Assembly: GCA_020431405.1 (NCBI GenBank)
Contig: JAGQIK010000602.1
Span: 1 to 38,591 of the forward strand
Reading direction: 5' to 3'
Length of the DNA stretch: 38,591 nucleotides
Origin: Myxococcales bacterium
GTDB taxonomy: Bacteria; Myxococcota_A; Polyangia; GCA-2747355
This document shows positions 161 through 38,200 of this stretch, piece by piece. The position numbers were made by a program, and so were the translations under genes. The first letter of the stretch is position 1. Each line of letters starts with the position of its first letter. The notes beneath the pieces were generated by a model. It had not been told where the DNA came from, did not search any database, and was given only the letters and a program-made list of their open reading frames with translations.

Positions 161-2101
161 TCAGCCGCCGGCGACCTTCGACGACGCCGGCTTCTTTCCG
201 CCGCCGCCCTCGTCGATGTCCTCGACGCGCACCGAGACCTCGAGCGTCTCGCCTTTGCCGCCCTTGTAGATCGTGCCCGACGTGGGCGTGGCGTCGCGGT
301 AGTTGCGGCCGACGGCTACGCGCACGTGGTCGACGTTGGCTAGACAGCCGTTGGTGGGGTCGTAGCCGCGCCAGCCGGCCCACGGCAGGTACAGCTCGAC
401 CCAGGCGTGCGAGGCCTCGGACTGGATCTGGTTGTCGTAGTTGGCGGCGGTGTAGACGTAGCCGACGCGATAGCGCGCCGGCACGCCGAGCAGCTGCGCC
501 AGGCAGATGAAGAGGTTGGCGAAGTCCTGACAGACGCCGCGGCGGTTGATGTAGACCTCGAAGGGCGTGGTCTGCAGCGTGGTGGACTTCGACTCGTACT
601 TGAAGTCTTCGCGCAGCGACTGGTTGATGTCCTCGAGCGTCTCCATCAGGTCGTAGTCCTGGCGCTCGACGAAGCCCATGGCGAACTCGGAGAGCTCGCG
701 CAGCTGCGTCTCGGGCAGCTCGGGCGGCAGCAGGTAGGCCTGCATCATCTGACGCTGCCAGGGCATCCACACCAGGGGGATCGACGTGCGCCGCGTGGGC
801 GCCGCGACGGGTGGATCGATCGTGACGCGCACCAGCGAGCGCGAGGTGATGCGCAGCTCCTCGTAGGGGTTGCGCACCTTGGTGCGCAGCGTCTGGTTGC
901 CGAAGACATCCTCGAAGGCGTTGGACTCGCCGGCCGGCGAGACGACGAGCGAGTGCTCGATGACCTCCTGGCGCACGTCGTGTACCGGCCGCAGCCGAAA
1001 GACATGCGTGCTGCGCTCGACGGGCTCGGTGTAGCGATAGATCGTTTCGTGAAGCACGCGCAGCAGGCGGCTCGCTTTGGTGCGCCGCGGCTGCGCGTAG
1101 TTGGTCGTGTCCTGCGCCGCGCGCACCTGCAGCGCCGCCTCGATACGCGAGGGGCGCGCCATCAGCGCCGGCAGGTGAAGCTCTTGCTCCTCGCGCGCCA
1201 CCGCGCTGGCGAGGTCATTGGGCGTCAGCTCGGTGGGCCGCTCGAGCAGCGGCCCTGACACCCTTGGCTTGCTCTCGTCATCGCGATCGCGGTCGTTGAC
1301 GTTGCCGCGCCAGACGATCGCGCCGCGCCGCGCCACGACCATCTCGCCGCCGTCCATCGCCGTCCACTCGGCGCGTCCCACCGGCTCGGTGGCGAACAGC
1401 ACCATGGTGCGGTTGATATCGAGCGGATGCCCGAGGTCGAGGCGCACGACGCGGTTGGAGAGCTTGGTGCGCGTGTGCGGCGGGCGGCGCCGAATGTAGT
1501 GCAGGCTGTTGAACTCTTCCGTGTCGCGATAAGCGACGAGGTCGAGGCCGTCGGTGAGCAGCGCGTTAAACGAGCCGAGGCTGTCGAGCTGCCCCATCCA
1601 GCCGAGCAGCCGCTCCCAGCCAACCTCGCCCAGCGTGCGCGCGCCGGCGTCGCGGATCTTGGTCAGCAGCCAACAGAAGGCGTGCTCCGAGTCGGTGCGG
1701 CCCACCGGCTCGAACACCGGCGGCGTGCCGAGCGGCAGCTCGCTAACCAGCCGCGGCGCGAGCTGGCCGTTGTGCGCGAAGAGCCAGTCGCGCTTGCCAT
1801 AGCTGCGGATGAACGGGTGCGTGTTCTCCTGGCTGGCGCGCTTGGCGGCGCCGCGGATGTGACAGACGAAGATCGTCGCGCGAAAACGCTCCCAGTCGCG
1901 CAGCACGCGCGAGAGCGGCGTGTCGCCGGTGGGCGTCGGGTCCTTGACCACCACCGCGCCTGCCTCGTGCGCCGGATACCAGGCGAAGCCCCAGCCCGTG
2001 GGCGGCACTTCGTGTGCCTCGCGCTCCTCGTCCGCCCAGCCGCGGATGCGGATCGATGGCGAGGCCGCCGCGTCGAATGACATGCCCAGTAGATCGCTCA
2101 A
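161..2101 (-). CDS. Class II glutamine amidotransferase-like / transglutaminase fusion protein
   Basis: Two enzymes are fused in 646 residues. Residues 1-270 resemble YafJ-type class II amidotransferases: DLLGMS at the N-terminus, then GWGFAWYP, NTHPF and FAHNGQL. Residues from about 345 are a bacterial transglutaminase N-terminal domain (HETIYRYTEPV) followed by the papain-like core with triad Cys524 (GVCQDFANL), His565 (SHAWVEL) and Asp581 (GYDPTNG). The start is a TTG at 2099-2101 with GGAG six bases upstream; the ATG at 2081-2083 would delete the conserved N-terminus. With the TTG start, residue 2 is Ser where YafJ-type enzymes have the catalytic Cys, so the amidotransferase half may be a Ser Ntn-hydrolase or inactive. 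It is the last gene of a leftward operon, 26 bp after the alpha-E gene. The transglutaminase call is firm; the reaction catalysed is unknown. Confidence 0.88.
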   Translation of the reverse strand: MSDLLGMSFDAAASPSIRIRGWADEEREAHEVPPTGWGFAWYPAHEAGAVVVKDPTPTGDTPLSRVLRDWERFRATIFVCHIRGAAKRASQENTHPFIRSYGKRDWLFAHNGQLAPRLVSELPLGTPPVFEPVGRTDSEHAFCWLLTKIRDAGARTLGEVGWERLLGWMGQLDSLGSFNALLTDGLDLVAYRDTEEFNSLHYIRRRPPHTRTKLSNRVVRLDLGHPLDINRTMVLFATEPVGRAEWTAMDGGEMVVARRGAIVWRGNVNDRDRDDESKPRVSGPLLERPTELTPNDLASAVAREEQELHLPALMARPSRIEAALQVRAAQDTTNYAQPRRTKASRLLRVLHETIYRYTEPVERSTHVFRLRPVHDVRQEVIEHSLVVSPAGESNAFEDVFGNQTLRTKVRNPYEELRITSRSLVRVTIDPPVAAPTRRTSIPLVWMPWQRQMMQAYLLPPELPETQLRELSEFAMGFVERQDYDLMETLEDINQSLREDFKYESKSTTLQTTPFEVYINRRGVCQDFANLFICLAQLLGVPARYRVGYVYTAANYDNQIQSEASHAWVELYLPWAGWRGYDPTNGCLANVDHVRVAVGRNYRDATPTSGTIYKGGKGETLEVSVRVEDIDEGGGGKKPASSKVAGG

Positions 2102-2127: not shown

Positions 2128-3098
<971 letters not shown>

Positions 3099-3102
<4 letters not shown>

Positions 3103-4562
3103 CGCTGCAGCACCCAGGTATCCTTGGAGCCGCCGCCCTGGCTCGAGTTGACGACGTAGGAGCCCTCGGCGAGGGCCACGCGGGTCAACCCGCCGGGCAG
3201 CACCCACGTCGAGCGTCCGGTGACGATGAACGGGCGTAGGTCCACGCGGCGCGGCGCGATGCGGTCGCCGAGCCACGTCGGGCATGCCGACAGCTCCACC
3301 AGCGGCTGCGCGATGTAGCTGCGCGGGCGCTGCTTGATGCGCTGGCGAAACTCCTCGATCTCGGCCGGCGCCGCGCGCGGCCCGATCAACATGCCGTAGC
3401 CTCCGGAGCCGTTGACGTCCTTGGTCACCATCGAGGCCAGGTTCTGCAGCACGTGGTCGCGCTCGGCGGCGTTCTCGCAGTGATACGTCTCGACCTGGCC
3501 GAGGATCGGCTCTTCGCTCAGGTAGAAGCGGATCATCGCGGGCACGTAGGGATAGACGCCCTTATCGTCGGCCACACCGTTGCCGATGCCGTTGGCCAAC
3601 GTCACGTTGCCGCGCGCGTAGGCGCGCACGATGCCGCGCACGCCGAGCAGCGAGTCGGCGCGAAAGGCCTCGGGGTCGAGAAAGTCGTCGTCGATGCGGC
3701 GATAGATCACGTCGACGCGCTGCGGGCCGGCCGTCGTCTTGACGAACACCGTGTCGTCGTGAACGAAGAGGTCCGTCGGGCAGACCAGGTCGCAGCCCAT
3801 GCGGCGCGCGAGGAACGTGTGCTCGAAGTAGGCCGAGTTGTAGGGCCCCGGCGTGAGCACGACCACGCGCGGGTGGTCGCCGGCGCGCTCGGGCGCCAGC
3901 GAGCTGATGGCGTTGCGCAGCCGCGACGGATACTCGTCCACCGGGCGGATGTCGATCTTGGAGAGCACCGGGGCGAGCACGCGCTTCATCACGGCGCGGT
4001 TTTCGAGCACGTACGAGACGCCCGAGGGCGTGCGCAGGTTGTCCTCGAGCACGAGGAAGCGGCCGTCGGCGCCGCGGATCAGATCGATGCCGGCCACCTG
4101 CACGTAGACGCCGCCGGGCGGACGCACGCCGACCATCTTCTCGAGGAAGCCGGTCGAGCTCTCGACGACGTCGCGCGGCACGTGGCCCTCGGCGATGATG
4201 CGCTGATCGCCGTAGACGTCGGCGAGGAACATGTTGAGCGCGCGGATGCGCTGGCTCAGGCCGCTGTCGATGTGCTCCCAGTCTTCGGCGGCGACGATGC
4301 GTGGGATGACGTCGAAGGGGAAGATGCGCTCGACGCCGCCGCGCCGGTCACCGTAAACGTTGAACGTGATGCCGCCGGTGAGCAGCGCCTTGCCGGCGAG
4401 CCGCTGGCGCGTGCGCAGCTCGGCGGCGCCCATCGCGTTGATCAAGCTGACCGTGGCGGCGAACGCTTCGCGCGGCTTGTCGCGCGCCTCGAACACTTCG
4501 TCAAAAGTGCCGGGTAGCGGCGTGTACTCGGAAAAGGGGGCGGTCGTCTGTTTGGCGTGCAT
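3099..4562 (-). CDS. Circularly permuted ATP-grasp type 2 protein
   Basis: A 487-residue member of the circularly permuted ATP-grasp family (formerly DUF404/DUF407). Typical blocks are [10 protein letters not shown] near residue 65, [72 protein letters not shown] and the glycine loop [20 protein letters not shown]-grasp enzymes join a carboxylate to an amine or thiol through an acylphosphate; this subfamily is predicted to make peptide bonds, substrate unknown. It heads a three-gene leftward operon (ATP-grasp, alpha-E, amidotransferase/transglutaminase) and is only 35 bp from the divergently transcribed transglutaminase-DUF2126 gene. ATG start; only a weak AGGG lies about 16 bases upstream. 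Confidence 0.95.
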
Positions 4563-4597: not shown

Positions 4598-7900
<3,303 letters not shown>

Positions 7901-7909
7901 GCAGCACCG

Positions 7910-10033
7910 ATGGCCTCGCGCGCTGAATGGCTCGACCGCTTCGCCAGCGCCATCGACGCGCACGACGCGACGCTCGCCGAACGCGGTCTAGACATCTGGG
8001 TCGGCGGCGAGCCGACCTTCACCGACCGCTGGTCCGCGGACCCGCAGTGGAACGGTGGCGCGCTCGGCGATGACAAGCGGGCCCGCGCGGTAGGCGTGCT
8101 GCGGCGGCTCGCCGAGAGGCGGCCTGGCGCGGCGGTGCTGCGCGCGCTCGGCCGGCAGTATCCCGACGAGGACCTGCCGCGCTGGAGCCTCGGTGTCTAC
8201 GCGCGGCGCGACGGGACGGCGGTTTGGCGCGGACCGCCAGACCCCTGCCTGCTGCCGCCGGAGCTCGATTCGCGCTGCGCGCCGGACGCGCTGGTGACGC
8301 TGCGCGACGTGCTGCTCGAACGGCTCGCGGCGCTCGGGTTGTCGACGGCGAGCTTCGAGCTCGGCGAGAGCGACCTGCGCGTGCTGTACTCGCCCGAGCC
8401 GATCGACGGCATCACACTGGCGTCGCATCCGGACATCGCGCGCGCCTCGGCGCACGACGAGGCCACGCCGCCTGAGGGACCAATTGATGCACTAGCCGCA
8501 CGATCGCTATTTCTCATCGTGCTCGGTCAGCACGATGACGGCACGGCGCGCATCGAGCTGCCGCAGCTCTTCGCGGTCGATCCGTTCGTGCAGCTGCTCG
8601 AGCTGGTCGGCGACGCCGCCAGCCACGTGGGCCTCGCCGCGCTGGTGCTCGGCGGCTTCGCACCACCCACCGACGCCAGCGTGGCTTGGACCACCGTGAC
8701 GCCCGACCCAGGCGTGCTCGAGCTCAACCTCTGCCCCTGCGAGAGCAGCCGCGCGCTGCTCGACGAGACCCGCGCCGCCTACCAGGCCGCCGAGGCCGAG
8801 GGGCTGTCCGCGTGGCGGCTGCACTTCAATGGTCACGTCACCGAGTCCGGCGGCGGCGGACACCTCACGCTGGGCGGGCGCACGCCCGAGACGTCGCCGT
8901 TCTTTGTCGAGCCGCAGCTGCTGCCGCGGCTGATCTGCTACTTCAGCGCGCACCCGAGCCTGTCGTACGCCTTCTGCGAGCAGGCGGGCAGCTCGAGCCA
9001 GGCGCCGCGCGCCGACGAGGGGGCTGCCGAGTCCGTGCGCGAGCTCGAGCTGGCGCTGCACCTGCTCGAGCGCGAGCCTGCCCCCGACCCGGAGCTTATC
9101 TGGCGCACGCTGGCGCCGTTTCTGGTCGACCGCTTCGGCAACACGCACCGCGCCGAGATCAACGTCGAGAAGCTCTGCAACCCGCTGCTGCCGCTGCGCG
9201 GCAAGCTCGGGCTGGTCGAGCTGCGCGCGATGCGCATGCCCGAGCGACCCGAACGTTGGGCGGCGCTGGCGGCGCTGCTGCGCGCCGTGGTCGCGCGCCT
9301 CGGCGCGGGGGCGGCGACGACTCAATTGACCGACTGGGGTCGCCAGCTTCACGACCGCTTCGCCCTGCCCTTCTATCTGCGCCAAGACCTGCGCCGCGTG
9401 TTCGCCGACCTCGACCAGCATGGCCTGCTGCCCGCGGCGCCCGTCACCGAGGAGCTGCTCGACGACGACCACCGCGTGCTCGGCGTGCAGCGCTTCGGCA
9501 CGGCCCAGCTGGTCGTACGGCAGGCGATCGAGTTCTGGCCGGTGATCGGTGACCTCTCGGCGCAGAACGGAACCTCGCGTCTGCTCGACGCGAGCTGTCG
9601 CCGCGTGGAGCTGTGCCTGCGCGCCGTCGACGAGGCGGACGAGGCGCTCGAGGGCTGGACGCTGAGCGTCGACGGCTACGACGTACCGCTGGTGCGCGAC
9701 GACGACGAGGAAGGCGCAGCGCTTGTCATCGGGCTGCGCTACCGCGCCTACACACCGGCGATCGGACTGCATCCGTCGTTGCCCGCGCACGGGCCGCTGA
9801 CGCTAGCGCTGCAGCACCCAGACCAGGGCGCCTACTGCGTGCGGCTTCACGACTGGCGCCCGCAGGGCGGCGCGTACGAGGGGCTGCCCGTCGATCAGGA
9901 CGACGCCATGCGACGCCGGCAGGAGCGGCTGGTGCTCGAAGAGGTCGCGGCGCCCGCGACAGTGCGCGAGGGCGCGCCGGCGGCAGCGCTGACTCGCTAC
10001 TGCTTCGACACGCGTTGGCTGCCCGTGCGCTGA
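7910..10033 (+). CDS. Stand-alone DUF2126 putative amidoligase
   Basis: A 707-residue paralogue of the DUF2126 half of the preceding gene, lacking the transglutaminase domain. The motifs line up in order: VGGEPTFTDRW, DEDLPRWSL, VTPDPGVLELNL, SGGGGHLTLGG, SPFFVEPQLL, HPSLSYAF, SQAPRADE, GNTHRAEINVEKL and GLVELRAMRMP. The charged and glycine-rich motifs conserved in the family are intact, so nothing visible suggests inactivity. The region between about residues 100 and 200 is shorter and more divergent than in the first copy. It begins 9 bp after the upstream stop and lacks a strong Shine-Dalgarno, consistent with an operon and possible coupling. Its last 37 bp overlap the convergent DUF1460 gene. 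Confidence 0.92.
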   Translation: MASRAEWLDRFASAIDAHDATLAERGLDIWVGGEPTFTDRWSADPQWNGGALGDDKRARAVGVLRRLAERRPGAAVLRALGRQYPDEDLPRWSLGVYARRDGTAVWRGPPDPCLLPPELDSRCAPDALVTLRDVLLERLAALGLSTASFELGESDLRVLYSPEPIDGITLASHPDIARASAHDEATPPEGPIDALAARSLFLIVLGQHDDGTARIELPQLFAVDPFVQLLELVGDAASHVGLAALVLGGFAPPTDASVAWTTVTPDPGVLELNLCPCESSRALLDETRAAYQAAEAEGLSAWRLHFNGHVTESGGGGHLTLGGRTPETSPFFVEPQLLPRLICYFSAHPSLSYAFCEQAGSSSQAPRADEGAAESVRELELALHLLEREPAPDPELIWRTLAPFLVDRFGNTHRAEINVEKLCNPLLPLRGKLGLVELRAMRMPERPERWAALAALLRAVVARLGAGAATTQLTDWGRQLHDRFALPFYLRQDLRRVFADLDQHGLLPAAPVTEELLDDDHRVLGVQRFGTAQLVVRQAIEFWPVIGDLSAQNGTSRLLDASCRRVELCLRAVDEADEALEGWTLSVDGYDVPLVRDDDEEGAALVIGLRYRAYTPAIGLHPSLPAHGPLTLALQHPDQGAYCVRLHDWRPQGGAYEGLPVDQDDAMRRRQERLVLEEVAAPATVREGAPAAALTRYCFDTRWLPVR

Positions 10034-15991: not shown

Positions 15992-17356
15992 TCAGCGGCA
16001 GACATCGTCGCTGCCGAGCGTGCGCCCGACGCAGCCCGACTCGCAGGCGACGAACACCGGCCCGCTGCCGTCGCACTTGTAGAGCCGCCCGCCGCTGCAG
16101 GTCCACAGCTGCACGCTGCCGTAGGCCGAGCTCGTGCAGCTCCAGCTCGACGAGGCCGCCGCCGAGATGCAGTAGTCGCGCTTGCCCGCCGCCGCGCCGT
16201 AGCAACCGCGCGTGCAGGTCTGCGCCGTCGGCGTGCTGCCCACGCACTTGCGCACGTGCGTCTGCCCGTCGCAGGTCCAAAGCTGCGCGCCGAGGTACGA
16301 CGAGCGCGCGCAGCTCCAGCTGCCCGAGGGCGCGGGCGACGGCGGCGTCGGCGCAGGCGGCGTCGGCGCCGGCGCGCTCGGCGTGACCCAGTTGCCACCG
16401 TCGCCGCACTGGTAGCTGCCCACCCGCGAGCCCGGCGCCATGCAGCGGCCGAGCGAGTTGCTCCAACAGAAGTAGACCGACGCGAGGCAGCAGTCCTTGC
16501 TCGTCGGGTTGGTGTTGCCGTCGTCGGGCATGCAGCCAGCCGGACCGCTCGCCGCCTGATAGTCGCGACAGCTCGCCGACAGCTGGCTCGCCGAGCCGCT
16601 GAGCTTGCCGCGCGCCGACAGCTCGCCGAGAGTCTGCAGCGTGATCTGGCTCAGGCGCCGGTGCTTGTAGAGCTTGGTGGAAAGCGACGTCTGCTCTTCG
16701 AGCTCGATGTAGCGGTGCATCACCTCGCAGGCGCTGTTGATCGTCGAGATCGAGTAGCTCGGCATCTGCGCGAAAGGCGGCTCGCCGTATCGTGCCGCGT
16801 CGGGGCTGCGCGGGTTCTGCACGGCGTCGCCGCTGCCCCACGACCCGTACGAGGTGCCCGGCTGCACGATCAGGTTCGGGTAGCCAACCCACGACACGTC
16901 GCTGAAGCGCGCGTCCTGGCGTGCGACCCAGTCGGCGAGCCGCACCGACTGGTTGCGGTCGAAGAGCGGGTCGAGCACGTAGAGCTGGCTCGGGTCTCCG
17001 TCGCGCTTGACCACCGGCGCGACGTGGTAACGCCAGCGCCCCATGATCGGATAGCCGCTCTTGGCGACGCAGTAGACGTGGTTCGACGGGATGCCCATCG
17101 AGGCCAACGTCATCGAGAAGTAGAAGGCGCGCGCGTAGCAGCCGTCGCTGGTGTACTTCCACGGCAGATACGGCAGCCCCGCCAGGTGGCGCACGGCCGC
17201 GTCGAAGTCGCCCTTGTTGAGCGTGGTCTCGCGCTCGTGACTCGCAGCGGAGGGCGCCGGCGGATCCTCGCCGAGGGTACCGACCGCGCCGGGCCCGCAG
17301 CCAGCGGCGGCGAGCGCGAGGAGAACAACAAGGAGGAGATAGCGTCTGGTTTTCAT
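15992..17356 (-). CDS. Protein-glutaminase-like lipoprotein with Cys-rich repeats
   Basis: A 454-residue lipoprotein with lipobox LAAAGC, lipidated at Cys20. The N-terminal domain carries the signature of secreted protein-glutaminases such as that of Chryseobacterium: DGCYARAFYFSMTLASMGIP with Cys73, WRYHVAPVV with His111 and YVLDPLFD with Asp129, a papain-like triad. Such enzymes deamidate glutamine side chains in proteins. A Cys-containing middle part, a Pro-rich linker (SAPAPTPPAPTPPSPAPS) and two tandem Cys-rich repeats follow (SWSCARSSYLGAQLWTCDG and SWSCTSSAYGSVQLWTCSG), possibly an adhesion or binding module. AAAGGA eight bases before the ATG at 17354-17356 fixes the start. Family resemblance is good, activity is inferred. 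Confidence 0.8.
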   Translation of the reverse strand: MKTRRYLLLVVLLALAAAGCGPGAVGTLGEDPPAPSAASHERETTLNKGDFDAAVRHLAGLPYLPWKYTSDGCYARAFYFSMTLASMGIPSNHVYCVAKSGYPIMGRWRYHVAPVVKRDGDPSQLYVLDPLFDRNQSVRLADWVARQDARFSDVSWVGYPNLIVQPGTSYGSWGSGDAVQNPRSPDAARYGEPPFAQMPSYSISTINSACEVMHRYIELEEQTSLSTKLYKHRRLSQITLQTLGELSARGKLSGSASQLSASCRDYQAASGPAGCMPDDGNTNPTSKDCCLASVYFCWSNSLGRCMAPGSRVGSYQCGDGGNWVTPSAPAPTPPAPTPPSPAPSGSWSCARSSYLGAQLWTCDGQTHVRKCVGSTPTAQTCTRGCYGAAAGKRDYCISAAASSSWSCTSSAYGSVQLWTCSGGRLYKCDGSGPVFVACESGCVGRTLGSDDVCR

Positions 17357-17543
17357 GGGGCGCGTCCTTTCGCGCCGCGCGCTGAGCAAGCCCCGCGCCA
17401 TCGCCGCAAATACGCGAACGCGCAGCGTTGTCTAGCGCCGCCGCATCCCGTGCGCACCGCCGCTCGAACGGCAGCGCAGACCCTCGTGTGCACTCGCGAC
17501 TCGATGTAGGATGGCCGCTCGCTCAGCCGAAGGACCTACCAAC

Positions 17544-35773: not shown

Positions 35774-38200
35774 ATGCTCGACCCCCAGTGGCTCGCAAGT
35801 CAGCTTCGCGCACGCGGCCTCGTCTCGGACGGCCAGCTGCGAGCGGCGTCGAGTGATGGCGGCGATTTCTGTTTCAGCCTGCTCAGCGCCGGCGCCATCG
35901 AAGAGACGGCGCTGCTGCGCTTTCTCGGCCTGCACTTCAACACGCGCTACGTCTCCACCGAGAAGCTGAGCAAGGCCAAGGTCCCGCAGTGGGTTCTCGA
36001 CCTACTGCCGGTGCAGTTGTGCGAGCGCGCGCAGGTCGTCCCCGTCCGCTGCGACAAGCAGAAGATGGTGCTCAGCGTGGTGACGCCGGATCCCTCGGAT
36101 CCGCGCATCCGAGAGGCCGTGCAGCGCGCGTCGCGCGTGCGCGAGGTGCACATGTACGTCGCGCTGCCGCACGCCATCGAGGCGGCGCTGCGCAAGTGGT
36201 ATCGCGGCGACATCCACGCCTTCTCGCGCATGGAGCAGAAGCTGGGCTCGGGCTACAGCCAGATGCTCGACATCTACGACCAGCGCGCCATCGACCTCGG
36301 CGGCGGCGGCGGCAGCGCCAGCATGGACGCCTTCGACGCTGACCTCGCGCTCGCCGACGGCGCCGGCATGGACATGCAGATCGAGCAGGACCGTCCCGGC
36401 ATGGGGACGCGTCCGCGCGCCGGCATCAATCAGCCCCACGCCGACGGCAGCGCCGACTTCGGCATCGACCTCGACAACGGTCCGATGCCCGGCACCGGGC
36501 GCGGAGACTTCGATCTCGATGGCGGGCTCGGCATGGACGTGGGCGGCGGTCGCGGCGGCGGTATGGGCGGCGGCGGTATGGGCGGCGGCGGTATGGGCGG
36601 CGGCGGCATGGGCGGTGGCGGCATGTCGTCGCCTGGTGATCGCTCGATCCCGCTCGATTCAGGTCCGATGGGTGGCGGGCCGGGCGGTGGCGCGATGAGC
36701 GGCGGCGCGATGGGCATGCCACGCTCGGCGCAACCCACCGCGCCGATCCCGGCGATCAAACCGCAGGAGGCCCACCGGCGCCAGACGGCGAACTTCGGCA
36801 GCGTGCCCTCGGCCTCCTCGGGCAGGGTCAGCGACCTCGAGCAGCTCGGCACGGGACCGGCGATGTCGCCCAGCGACAGCGCGCTGATCGCTGCGGAGCC
36901 GATCGTGCCGCTCGAGACGTTCGTGCAGACGGTCTCGGTGCTGGTGAGCTTGCTCGAGATGGGACAAGGCTGGCGTCAAGGTCACTCCGCCGAGGTCGCG
37001 CGGCTGGTGGCGTTGATGGGCCAGCGCGTTGGGCTGCCACCCGACGAGGTCGGCTACCTCAAGCTCGCCGCCTACCTTCACGAGCTGGGCAAGCCCGCCG
37101 AGCCGCATCTGACGGTGGCGAGCGTCGCCGAGTCGCCCGAGCTCAAGGCGCTCGCGCGGCGGGTGTACATGACGCCGATCAAGCTCACCGAGGCGGCCAG
37201 TCTTCCGGCCGCCGTGACGAGCGTGCTGGCTGCGCAGTACGAGCGCACGTCGGGCGACGGCGTGCCGGGCAAGCTGTCGGGACGCGAGGTGCCGCTCGGC
37301 GCGCGCCTGCTCGCGGTGGTCGACGTGTTCTGCGATCTGATGGCCAACCCACGCGCCCCCGGCGGGCGTGCAGCCGATCAGGCACAGGGTCTCGAGCGGC
37401 TGCGCCAGGCCGCCAGCGCGCGCGTGCTCGACGCCAACGCGGTCGACATCTTCTGCCAGGTCACCACCGGCGACGCGCTGCGCGAGCAGCTGCTCGGCGA
37501 CCGGCCGCGCATCTTGATCATCGACGGCGACGCCGAATCGACCACGGTGCTCGAGCTCAAGCTCGTCGCCGCCGGCTACGACGTGCGCGTCTACAAGACC
37601 ACCGCCGAGGCCGCGCGCGAGGTGCTCGGCAGCAGCGTCGATCTGATCCTCAGCGAGGTGCGCCTCGAGCCGGTCGATGGCTTCGGCTTCCTCGAGCGCA
37701 TCCGCGCCGACCCGCGCACGCGCGACATCCCGCTGATCTTCGTCTCCGACCGCACCGACGCCGACGACGTCAACCGCGGCTTCGAGCTCGGCGCGGCCGA
37801 CTACATCGTCAAGCCCTACACGCCCGAGCTGTTGGTGGCGAAGGTCAAGATGGTGCTCGAGCAGCGCCCGCCGGCTCCGGGCACGCGCGGCGTCAGCGGC
37901 TCGCTGCGCGAGATGTCGTTGCCCGACATCCTGCAGATCCTCTCCGCCGGCAAAAAGAGCGGTCAGCTGCGGCTGCGCTTCCCCGACGGCAGCGGCGAGA
38001 TCTATCTCGACGGCGGCCAGGTGGTGAACGCGGTGTGCGGCTCGCTGCGCGGCACCAAGGCGCTCTACCGGCTGCTGCCCGTCGACGACGGCGAGTTCAC
38101 GCTCGATCCCAACGCACAGATCCCCGAGCGCGTGATCCACCAGTCCACCGAGGCGCTGGTGCTCGAAGCCATGCGCCGCTTCGACGAGGGCGGTCGCTAG
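35774..38200 (+). CDS. MshEN / degenerate HD-GYP / receiver / DUF4388 signalling scaffold
   Basis: An 808-residue cytoplasmic protein with four domains. Residues 1-150 resemble the MshEN domain of type II secretion/pilus ATPases (LRFLGLHFNTRYVS, VPQWVLDLLPVQLCERAQVVPV), which can bind c-di-GMP. A Gly/Met-rich linker (about 165-370) follows. An HD-GYP-like domain (about 390-570) keeps His404 and His436 but has HE for HD (Glu437) and AQYERTSGDGVPG instead of HHERxDGxGYP, so phosphodiesterase activity is unlikely. A receiver (574-700) has Lys680, but Glu628 replaces the phosphorylated Asp. DUF4388 (715-805) starts at GSLREMSLPDILQIL. It looks like a non-enzymatic, phosphorylation-independent c-di-GMP-responsive scaffold, perhaps for motility or polarity; that is inference. 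Confidence 0.92.
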   Translation: MLDPQWLASQLRARGLVSDGQLRAASSDGGDFCFSLLSAGAIEETALLRFLGLHFNTRYVSTEKLSKAKVPQWVLDLLPVQLCERAQVVPVRCDKQKMVLSVVTPDPSDPRIREAVQRASRVREVHMYVALPHAIEAALRKWYRGDIHAFSRMEQKLGSGYSQMLDIYDQRAIDLGGGGGSASMDAFDADLALADGAGMDMQIEQDRPGMGTRPRAGINQPHADGSADFGIDLDNGPMPGTGRGDFDLDGGLGMDVGGGRGGGMGGGGMGGGGMGGGGMGGGGMSSPGDRSIPLDSGPMGGGPGGGAMSGGAMGMPRSAQPTAPIPAIKPQEAHRRQTANFGSVPSASSGRVSDLEQLGTGPAMSPSDSALIAAEPIVPLETFVQTVSVLVSLLEMGQGWRQGHSAEVARLVALMGQRVGLPPDEVGYLKLAAYLHELGKPAEPHLTVASVAESPELKALARRVYMTPIKLTEAASLPAAVTSVLAAQYERTSGDGVPGKLSGREVPLGARLLAVVDVFCDLMANPRAPGGRAADQAQGLERLRQAASARVLDANAVDIFCQVTTGDALREQLLGDRPRILIIDGDAESTTVLELKLVAAGYDVRVYKTTAEAAREVLGSSVDLILSEVRLEPVDGFGFLERIRADPRTRDIPLIFVSDRTDADDVNRGFELGAADYIVKPYTPELLVAKVKMVLEQRPPAPGTRGVSGSLREMSLPDILQILSAGKKSGQLRLRFPDGSGEIYLDGGQVVNAVCGSLRGTKALYRLLPVDDGEFTLDPNAQIPERVIHQSTEALVLEAMRRFDEGGR
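36551..36625 (+). repeat. 15-bp tandem repeat encoding GGGGM
   Basis: Five 15-bp units, mostly GGCGGCGGCGGTATG, lie in frame in the linker of the signalling scaffold gene and encode GGGGM repeats. Units 2 and 3 are identical and the rest differ at one or two positions. Being a multiple of three, copy-number change would only alter linker length. Confidence 0.9.

Follow-up and report, generated by a model that had tools for sequence, protein, structure and literature searches.

The amidotransferase domain that precedes a family of bacterial transglutaminases is probably a pseudoenzyme, a pseudo-amidotransferase without catalysis that is kept to bind a ligand or to act as a scaffold for an active-type transglutaminase. 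It has the class II amidotransferase (Ntn) fold, but has lost the catalytic cysteine, and with it probably the hydrolysis of glutamine. The fusion itself, the single clade into which its members fall, the loss of the nucleophile and the occurrence in several phyla make this a coherent candidate pseudoenzyme family, and the annotation of the fused proteins as glutamine amidotransferases is likely to be wrong.

The gene from which the analysis starts lies in a 38,591-nucleotide stretch of DNA from a Myxococcales bacterium (the window), on the minus strand at 161–2101, and encodes a protein of 646 amino acids (L001) from a TTG start. The frame is free of stops throughout, with the amidotransferase first and the transglutaminase second, as the sequence-only reading had it. 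The GATase_4 domain (YafJ-type class II amidotransferase fold; residues 1–274, 1280–2101) has serine at position 2 and belongs to the family by score (247.2 bits against a Pfam cut-off of 23, E = 1.9e-73) and by fold. It is followed on the same strand by Bact_transglu_N (residues 347–424, 830–1063, E = 4.3e-21) and Transglut_core (residues 476–582, 356–676, E = 1.9e-19), the latter containing the triad Cys524, His565 and Asp581. All three E values are far beyond chance.

A Shine–Dalgarno-like GGAG (2108–2111) stands six bases before the TTG (2101–2099), and the codon directly after it is AGC (2096–2098), which places Ser2 in the column of the catalytic cysteine. The TTG is 26 bases from the end of the upstream Alpha-E gene at 2128. 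This start is supported by the homologues, since 48 of 83 distinct fused N-domains have a start codon in the same column, and several have a stop codon only two to six codons further upstream. The earlier proposal of a TTG with a good Shine–Dalgarno sequence thus stands, as does the remark that a start at the first ATG (2083–2081), inside the sequence LLGMS, would hide the serine; that ATG is disfavoured by the same columns and nearby stops. An assembly or single-base error giving AGC for TGC is ruled out, because cysteine is absent from every fused relative in the set. The source genome (an 11.2 Mb draft of 733 contigs, 95.7% complete) also encodes separate GATase_4 proteins, the clearest of which (L002) begins MCELFAMS and has the cysteine.

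How general is the absence of cysteine? The survey combined 59 relatives with the best 80 of a larger number of loci from a scan of genome contigs (L036–L115). The phylum of the window contributed 377 genomes (47 with a match), the class of Asticcacaulis 337 (three with a match), the phylum of G411 240 (two) and the phylum of G408 77 (18). After removal of duplicates and incomplete rows, 112 fused frames were reduced to the 83 distinct N-domains, each complete at its N-terminus; the sample is biased, as the searches were seeded with a set lacking Cys (A1) and the window's own phylum is weighted. The rows dropped for an incomplete N-terminus were L196, which is masked by N, the truncated L210 and the second half of L156, a gene broken by a stop codon. 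Eight fused repeat rows of the control alignment are likewise uncounted; two of these come from genomes outside the 83, and both have proline. Stand-alone GATase_4 proteins of the window's own class, placed in the same alignment, served as the control, 20 of them with a readable N-terminus and a 21st without its N-terminus.

Not one of the 83 fused domains has the N-terminal catalytic cysteine of the class II amidotransferases. Position 2 is Ser in 30, Pro in 29, Gly in 14, Thr in four, Ala in two, and Leu, Asn, Arg or His in one each. The stand-alone controls have Cys in 20 of 20 readable cases and keep all of Arg83, Asn111, Gly112 and Asp137, so that the replacement of the nucleophilic cysteine by serine at residue 2, noted from the window sequence, is borne out. 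A smaller, earlier stand-alone set of 12 rows contained ten Cys, one Ala (L184, distant) and one Ser; the Ser row proved to be the first half of the broken fused gene L156. Genome G249, from which L156 comes, has a second fused copy, L160, with Ala in the nucleophile column. Residue 2 ranks 155th in conservation among 264 columns, and still only 151st when the Pro/Leu clade is set aside and the other 53 rows are ranked by themselves. Nor was another conserved nucleophile, the outcome named beforehand as contrary to the reading, seen among the invariant N-domain columns of the homologues.

The remainder of the active site has not decayed evenly. The window protein has the oxyanion motif HNG at residues 110–112, with the Asn-Gly pair intact, yet across the 83 domains column 111 is Asn in 34, Ser in 25, Ala in nine, Asp in six, Lys in three, Gly and Val in two each, and Thr and Cys in one each; asparagine has therefore been lost in 49. 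Asn111 ranks 132nd of the 264 columns, against 10th for His110, 19th for Gly112, 28th for Asp137 and 4th for Glu139. In these rows Ser2 and an intact oxyanion hole do not go together: Asn111 accompanies Ser in 15 of 30 and Gly in 14 of 14, and so does not track the nucleophile. The Pro-clade loci (L045, L048–L053, L055, L056, L060 and others) have HSG, HAG or HGG in place of HNG, and in that clade loss of the nucleophile and loss of the oxyanion asparagine thus go together.

By analogy with GlmS, we take Asp137 and Arg83 to bind the alpha-amino and alpha-carboxyl groups of glutamine. Asp137 is kept in 79 of the 83 fused domains, and position 83 is Arg or Lys in 71. Both are better kept than the nucleophile, and on this pattern of conservation the ligand of the domain may be glutamine- or glutamyl-like. 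A ligand common to the whole family is not proven, given that position 83 is non-basic in 12 of the 83 and proline replaces Asp137 in four.

Structural comparison likewise gives the domain a class II amidotransferase fold. The model of the window protein has a pLDDT of 71.9 and a pTM of 0.47, and does not fix the relative placement of the two halves. Its first half matches 1te5 (Z = 30.0, 2.4 Å over 247 residues, 32% identity), PurF, EgtC and GlmS, and its second half matches 3isr (Z = 17.6). The window protein shares the fold and most pocket columns with the YafJ-type GATase_4 proteins (PF13230; 1te5), from which the fused family differs in lacking Cys2, in being joined to a transglutaminase and in an N-terminus that is often extended. 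EgtC (4zfj, 4zfk and 4zfl; Z about 20.5–20.9) is an example of the same fold in a small-molecule pathway, where the substrate is a gamma-glutamyl compound. It differs in keeping Cys2, named by its C2A entry, where the window protein has Ser2, and the window protein scores 33.3 bits against the NCBIfam EgtC equivalog model, below its cut-off of 218.65. The N-domains of the β-lactam and carbapenam synthetases (1jgt, 1mc1 and 1q15) also have the class II amidotransferase fold (Z = 9.5–12.7). The β-lactam synthetase has lost the glutaminase use of this fold in a similar decay; in these enzymes the domain is attached to an asparagine-synthetase-like synthase, and in the fused family to a transglutaminase instead.

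Of the 83 fused proteins examined, two are gapped in the transglutaminase half and all of the other 81, which align, keep the triad equivalent to Cys524, His565 and Asp581; this half is probably the working enzyme. In a maximum-likelihood tree of the N-domains calculated with columns 1 and 2 left out, the fused domains form one clade apart from the stand-alone ones (SH-aLRT 99, the only type of support calculated, from a quick search). Within it there is a Pro clade of 30 rows (29 Pro and one Leu) and a Ser-rich clade of 53 rows, in which Ser occupies most branches and is replaced in others by Gly, Thr, Ala, His, Arg or Asn; position 2 changes state 11 times on the tree. The transglutaminase halves of the fused proteins also group together, with three label changes among 147 rows.

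We suggest that the role of the N-domain on the transglutaminase is one of binding or scaffolding. Its ligand may be a glutamyl or glutaminyl peptide end that is made by the ATP-grasp enzymes encoded nearby and handed to the transglutaminase. The Ser2 of the window protein would then reflect one early state in the history of the clade and not a new nucleophile. It had been suggested that ammonia or an amide passes between the two halves. This finds no support, since on the present reading there is no glutaminase to supply the ammonia, and the model of the window protein does not fix the placement of the halves. A retained amino-acid-binding pocket on the transglutaminase itself would offer a clue to the product of the system of ATP-grasp, Alpha-E and transglutaminase. 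We found no paper in the open-licence part of PMC on a fusion of a class II glutamine amidotransferase with a transglutaminase, on such a fusion as a nucleophile-less family, or on DUF2126.

Two of the observations against the reading as a pseudoenzyme would fit a Ser/Thr-type enzyme. Outside the Pro clade Ser or Thr is the commonest state, in 34 of 53 rows, as a nucleophile would look, and six of the 83, including the window protein, keep everything except the cysteine. These six (L001, L128, L146, L149, L152 and L155) combine Ser or Thr at position 2, a clean start, Arg83, Asn111 and Asp137, with Ser and Thr interchanging among them. They could represent a minority lineage of Ser/Thr-type Ntn hydrolases, amidases or gamma-glutamyl hydrolases, derived from a Cys-type ancestor. 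The protein Anbu of a related operon, which is an Ntn protein with a catalytic N-terminal threonine according to passages of PMC5666114, provides a parallel. Taken alone, the window protein does have by its sequence the free N-terminal serine of such an enzyme. The family does not have a conserved one, as Ser or Thr is present in 34 of 83 with a preceding start codon in 17 of the 34. A start codon directly before residue 2 is missing in 35 of the 83, and the 30 Ser members divide equally, 15 with and 15 without. This, with the low conservation of the column and the presence of Asn111 in only 34 of 83, makes serine an unlikely nucleophile family-wide. In the sister lineages of the six the same column is occupied by Gly, Ala, His, Arg or Asn, the oxyanion asparagine is intact in all 14 Gly members, and L009, from the same order as the window and with both Ser and Asn111, has CTC before the serine and its ATG nine codons further up. 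Moreover the residue that follows an initiator methionine is in any case often Ser or Thr. We therefore think it unlikely that the lineage of the window protein is a Ser/Thr hydrolase, and the earlier view that this may be a different hydrolase and not a dead glutaminase is unsupported for a family with nine different residues in the column, often not N-terminal, and a variable oxyanion asparagine. It is quite improbable, too, that the history was a series leading from a Cys glutaminase through a Ser/Thr Ntn hydrolase, surviving in the small lineage of the window protein, to a dead binding domain in the sister lineages, all fused to one transglutaminase.

The genomic context provides a further comparison. 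Upstream of the fused gene and in the same direction are the Alpha-E gene (2128–3285, minus strand; Pfam E = 5.6e-81) and a circularly permuted ATP-grasp gene (CP_ATPgrasp_1/2; 3099–4562, minus strand). Divergent from these are a second transglutaminase fused to DUF2126, a putative amidoligase (4598–7900, plus strand), and a second DUF2126 protein (7910–10033, plus strand). Within the sequence examined at 24 fused loci, the permuted ATP-grasp and Alpha-E are found at 15, DUF2126 at 17 and any of these at 21; L036, L037 and L055 have none of them. The window contains two other proteins of note. A 469-amino-acid protein (15992–17401, minus strand) matches Gln_deamidase_2, a glutaminase, with E = 9.6e-12, and thus shares the window with both transglutaminases; an 808-amino-acid protein (35774–38200, plus strand) joins MshEN, HD_5, response regulator and DUF4388 domains.

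The Anbu operon contains ATP-grasp, Alpha-E, transglutaminase and Anbu genes, as described in passages of PMC6376114 and PMC5666114, and the adjacent ATP-grasp, Alpha-E and transglutaminase genes of the window belong to the same three partner families, with one Ntn-fold protein per system. In the window the Ntn domain is instead of the amidotransferase type, is N-terminal to the transglutaminase and lacks a conserved nucleophile, and DUF2126 genes are added. With such partners the fused domain might stand in for Anbu in a variant operon, and in the source genome (a 95.7% complete draft) no Anbu gene was found, the sole PF00227 match being HslV. PF00227 matches, 21 in total, occur in 16 of the 21 genomes that carry the fused gene; 11 of the matching proteins were classified, nine as HslV and two as other than HslV. 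One genome, G406 (Algimonas), has in addition to the fused gene a proteasome-family gene for one of these two non-HslV proteins (L261), adjoining Alpha-E and transglutaminase genes, and so an Anbu-like operon and the fused-gene system can coexist. This, and the disappearance of the catalytic residue from the fused domains, leaves a replacement of Anbu distinctly improbable. Passages of PMC6376114 report that, for the Anbu of Y. bercovieri, one study found neither peptidase nor amidase activity.

Many of the fused N-domains begin before the nucleophile column, with extensions of 1, 4, 5, 7, 9 or more residues; in L136 and L137 the 25 codons upstream of that column include no start codon. Four members from different groups (L007, L042, L058 and L193) share an extension of the form F-x-I-P-x-L-[TS]-S-D (FNIPLLTSD, FKIPDLTSD, FQIPILTSD and FNIPSLSSD). 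The model of the L058 N-domain has a pLDDT of 85.4, with residues 1–6 of its seven-residue extension under 50, and matches 1te5 with Z = 28.1. Its structural alignments to class II enzymes mostly start at Ser9, which stands opposite the first residues (chain positions 1–3) of GlmS and PurF. The β-lactam synthetase aligns from its residue 10 in three of five entries (1mc1, 1mb9 and 1m1z), and so it also has residues before the nucleophile column. That the extensions are propeptides cut off autocatalytically to expose the serine, as removal of a propeptide exposes the cysteine of B. subtilis PurF, is very improbable: the short stretch before the serine is conserved in those four members, but extension lengths differ and the Gly lineage has a one-residue extension without any nucleophile.

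The transglutaminases nearest to the fused halves in the tree include two unfused ones, L059 and L061, of which L061 lies at the end of its contig and is not informative. L059 belongs to the same subfamily and has its own ATG, which lies a few residues ahead of the transglutaminase domain. It follows ATP-grasp and Alpha-E genes, directly after the latter, and no amidotransferase domain was found in its 12.9 kb of sequence. The existence of such an unfused protein indicates that the amidotransferase domain is dispensable somewhere.
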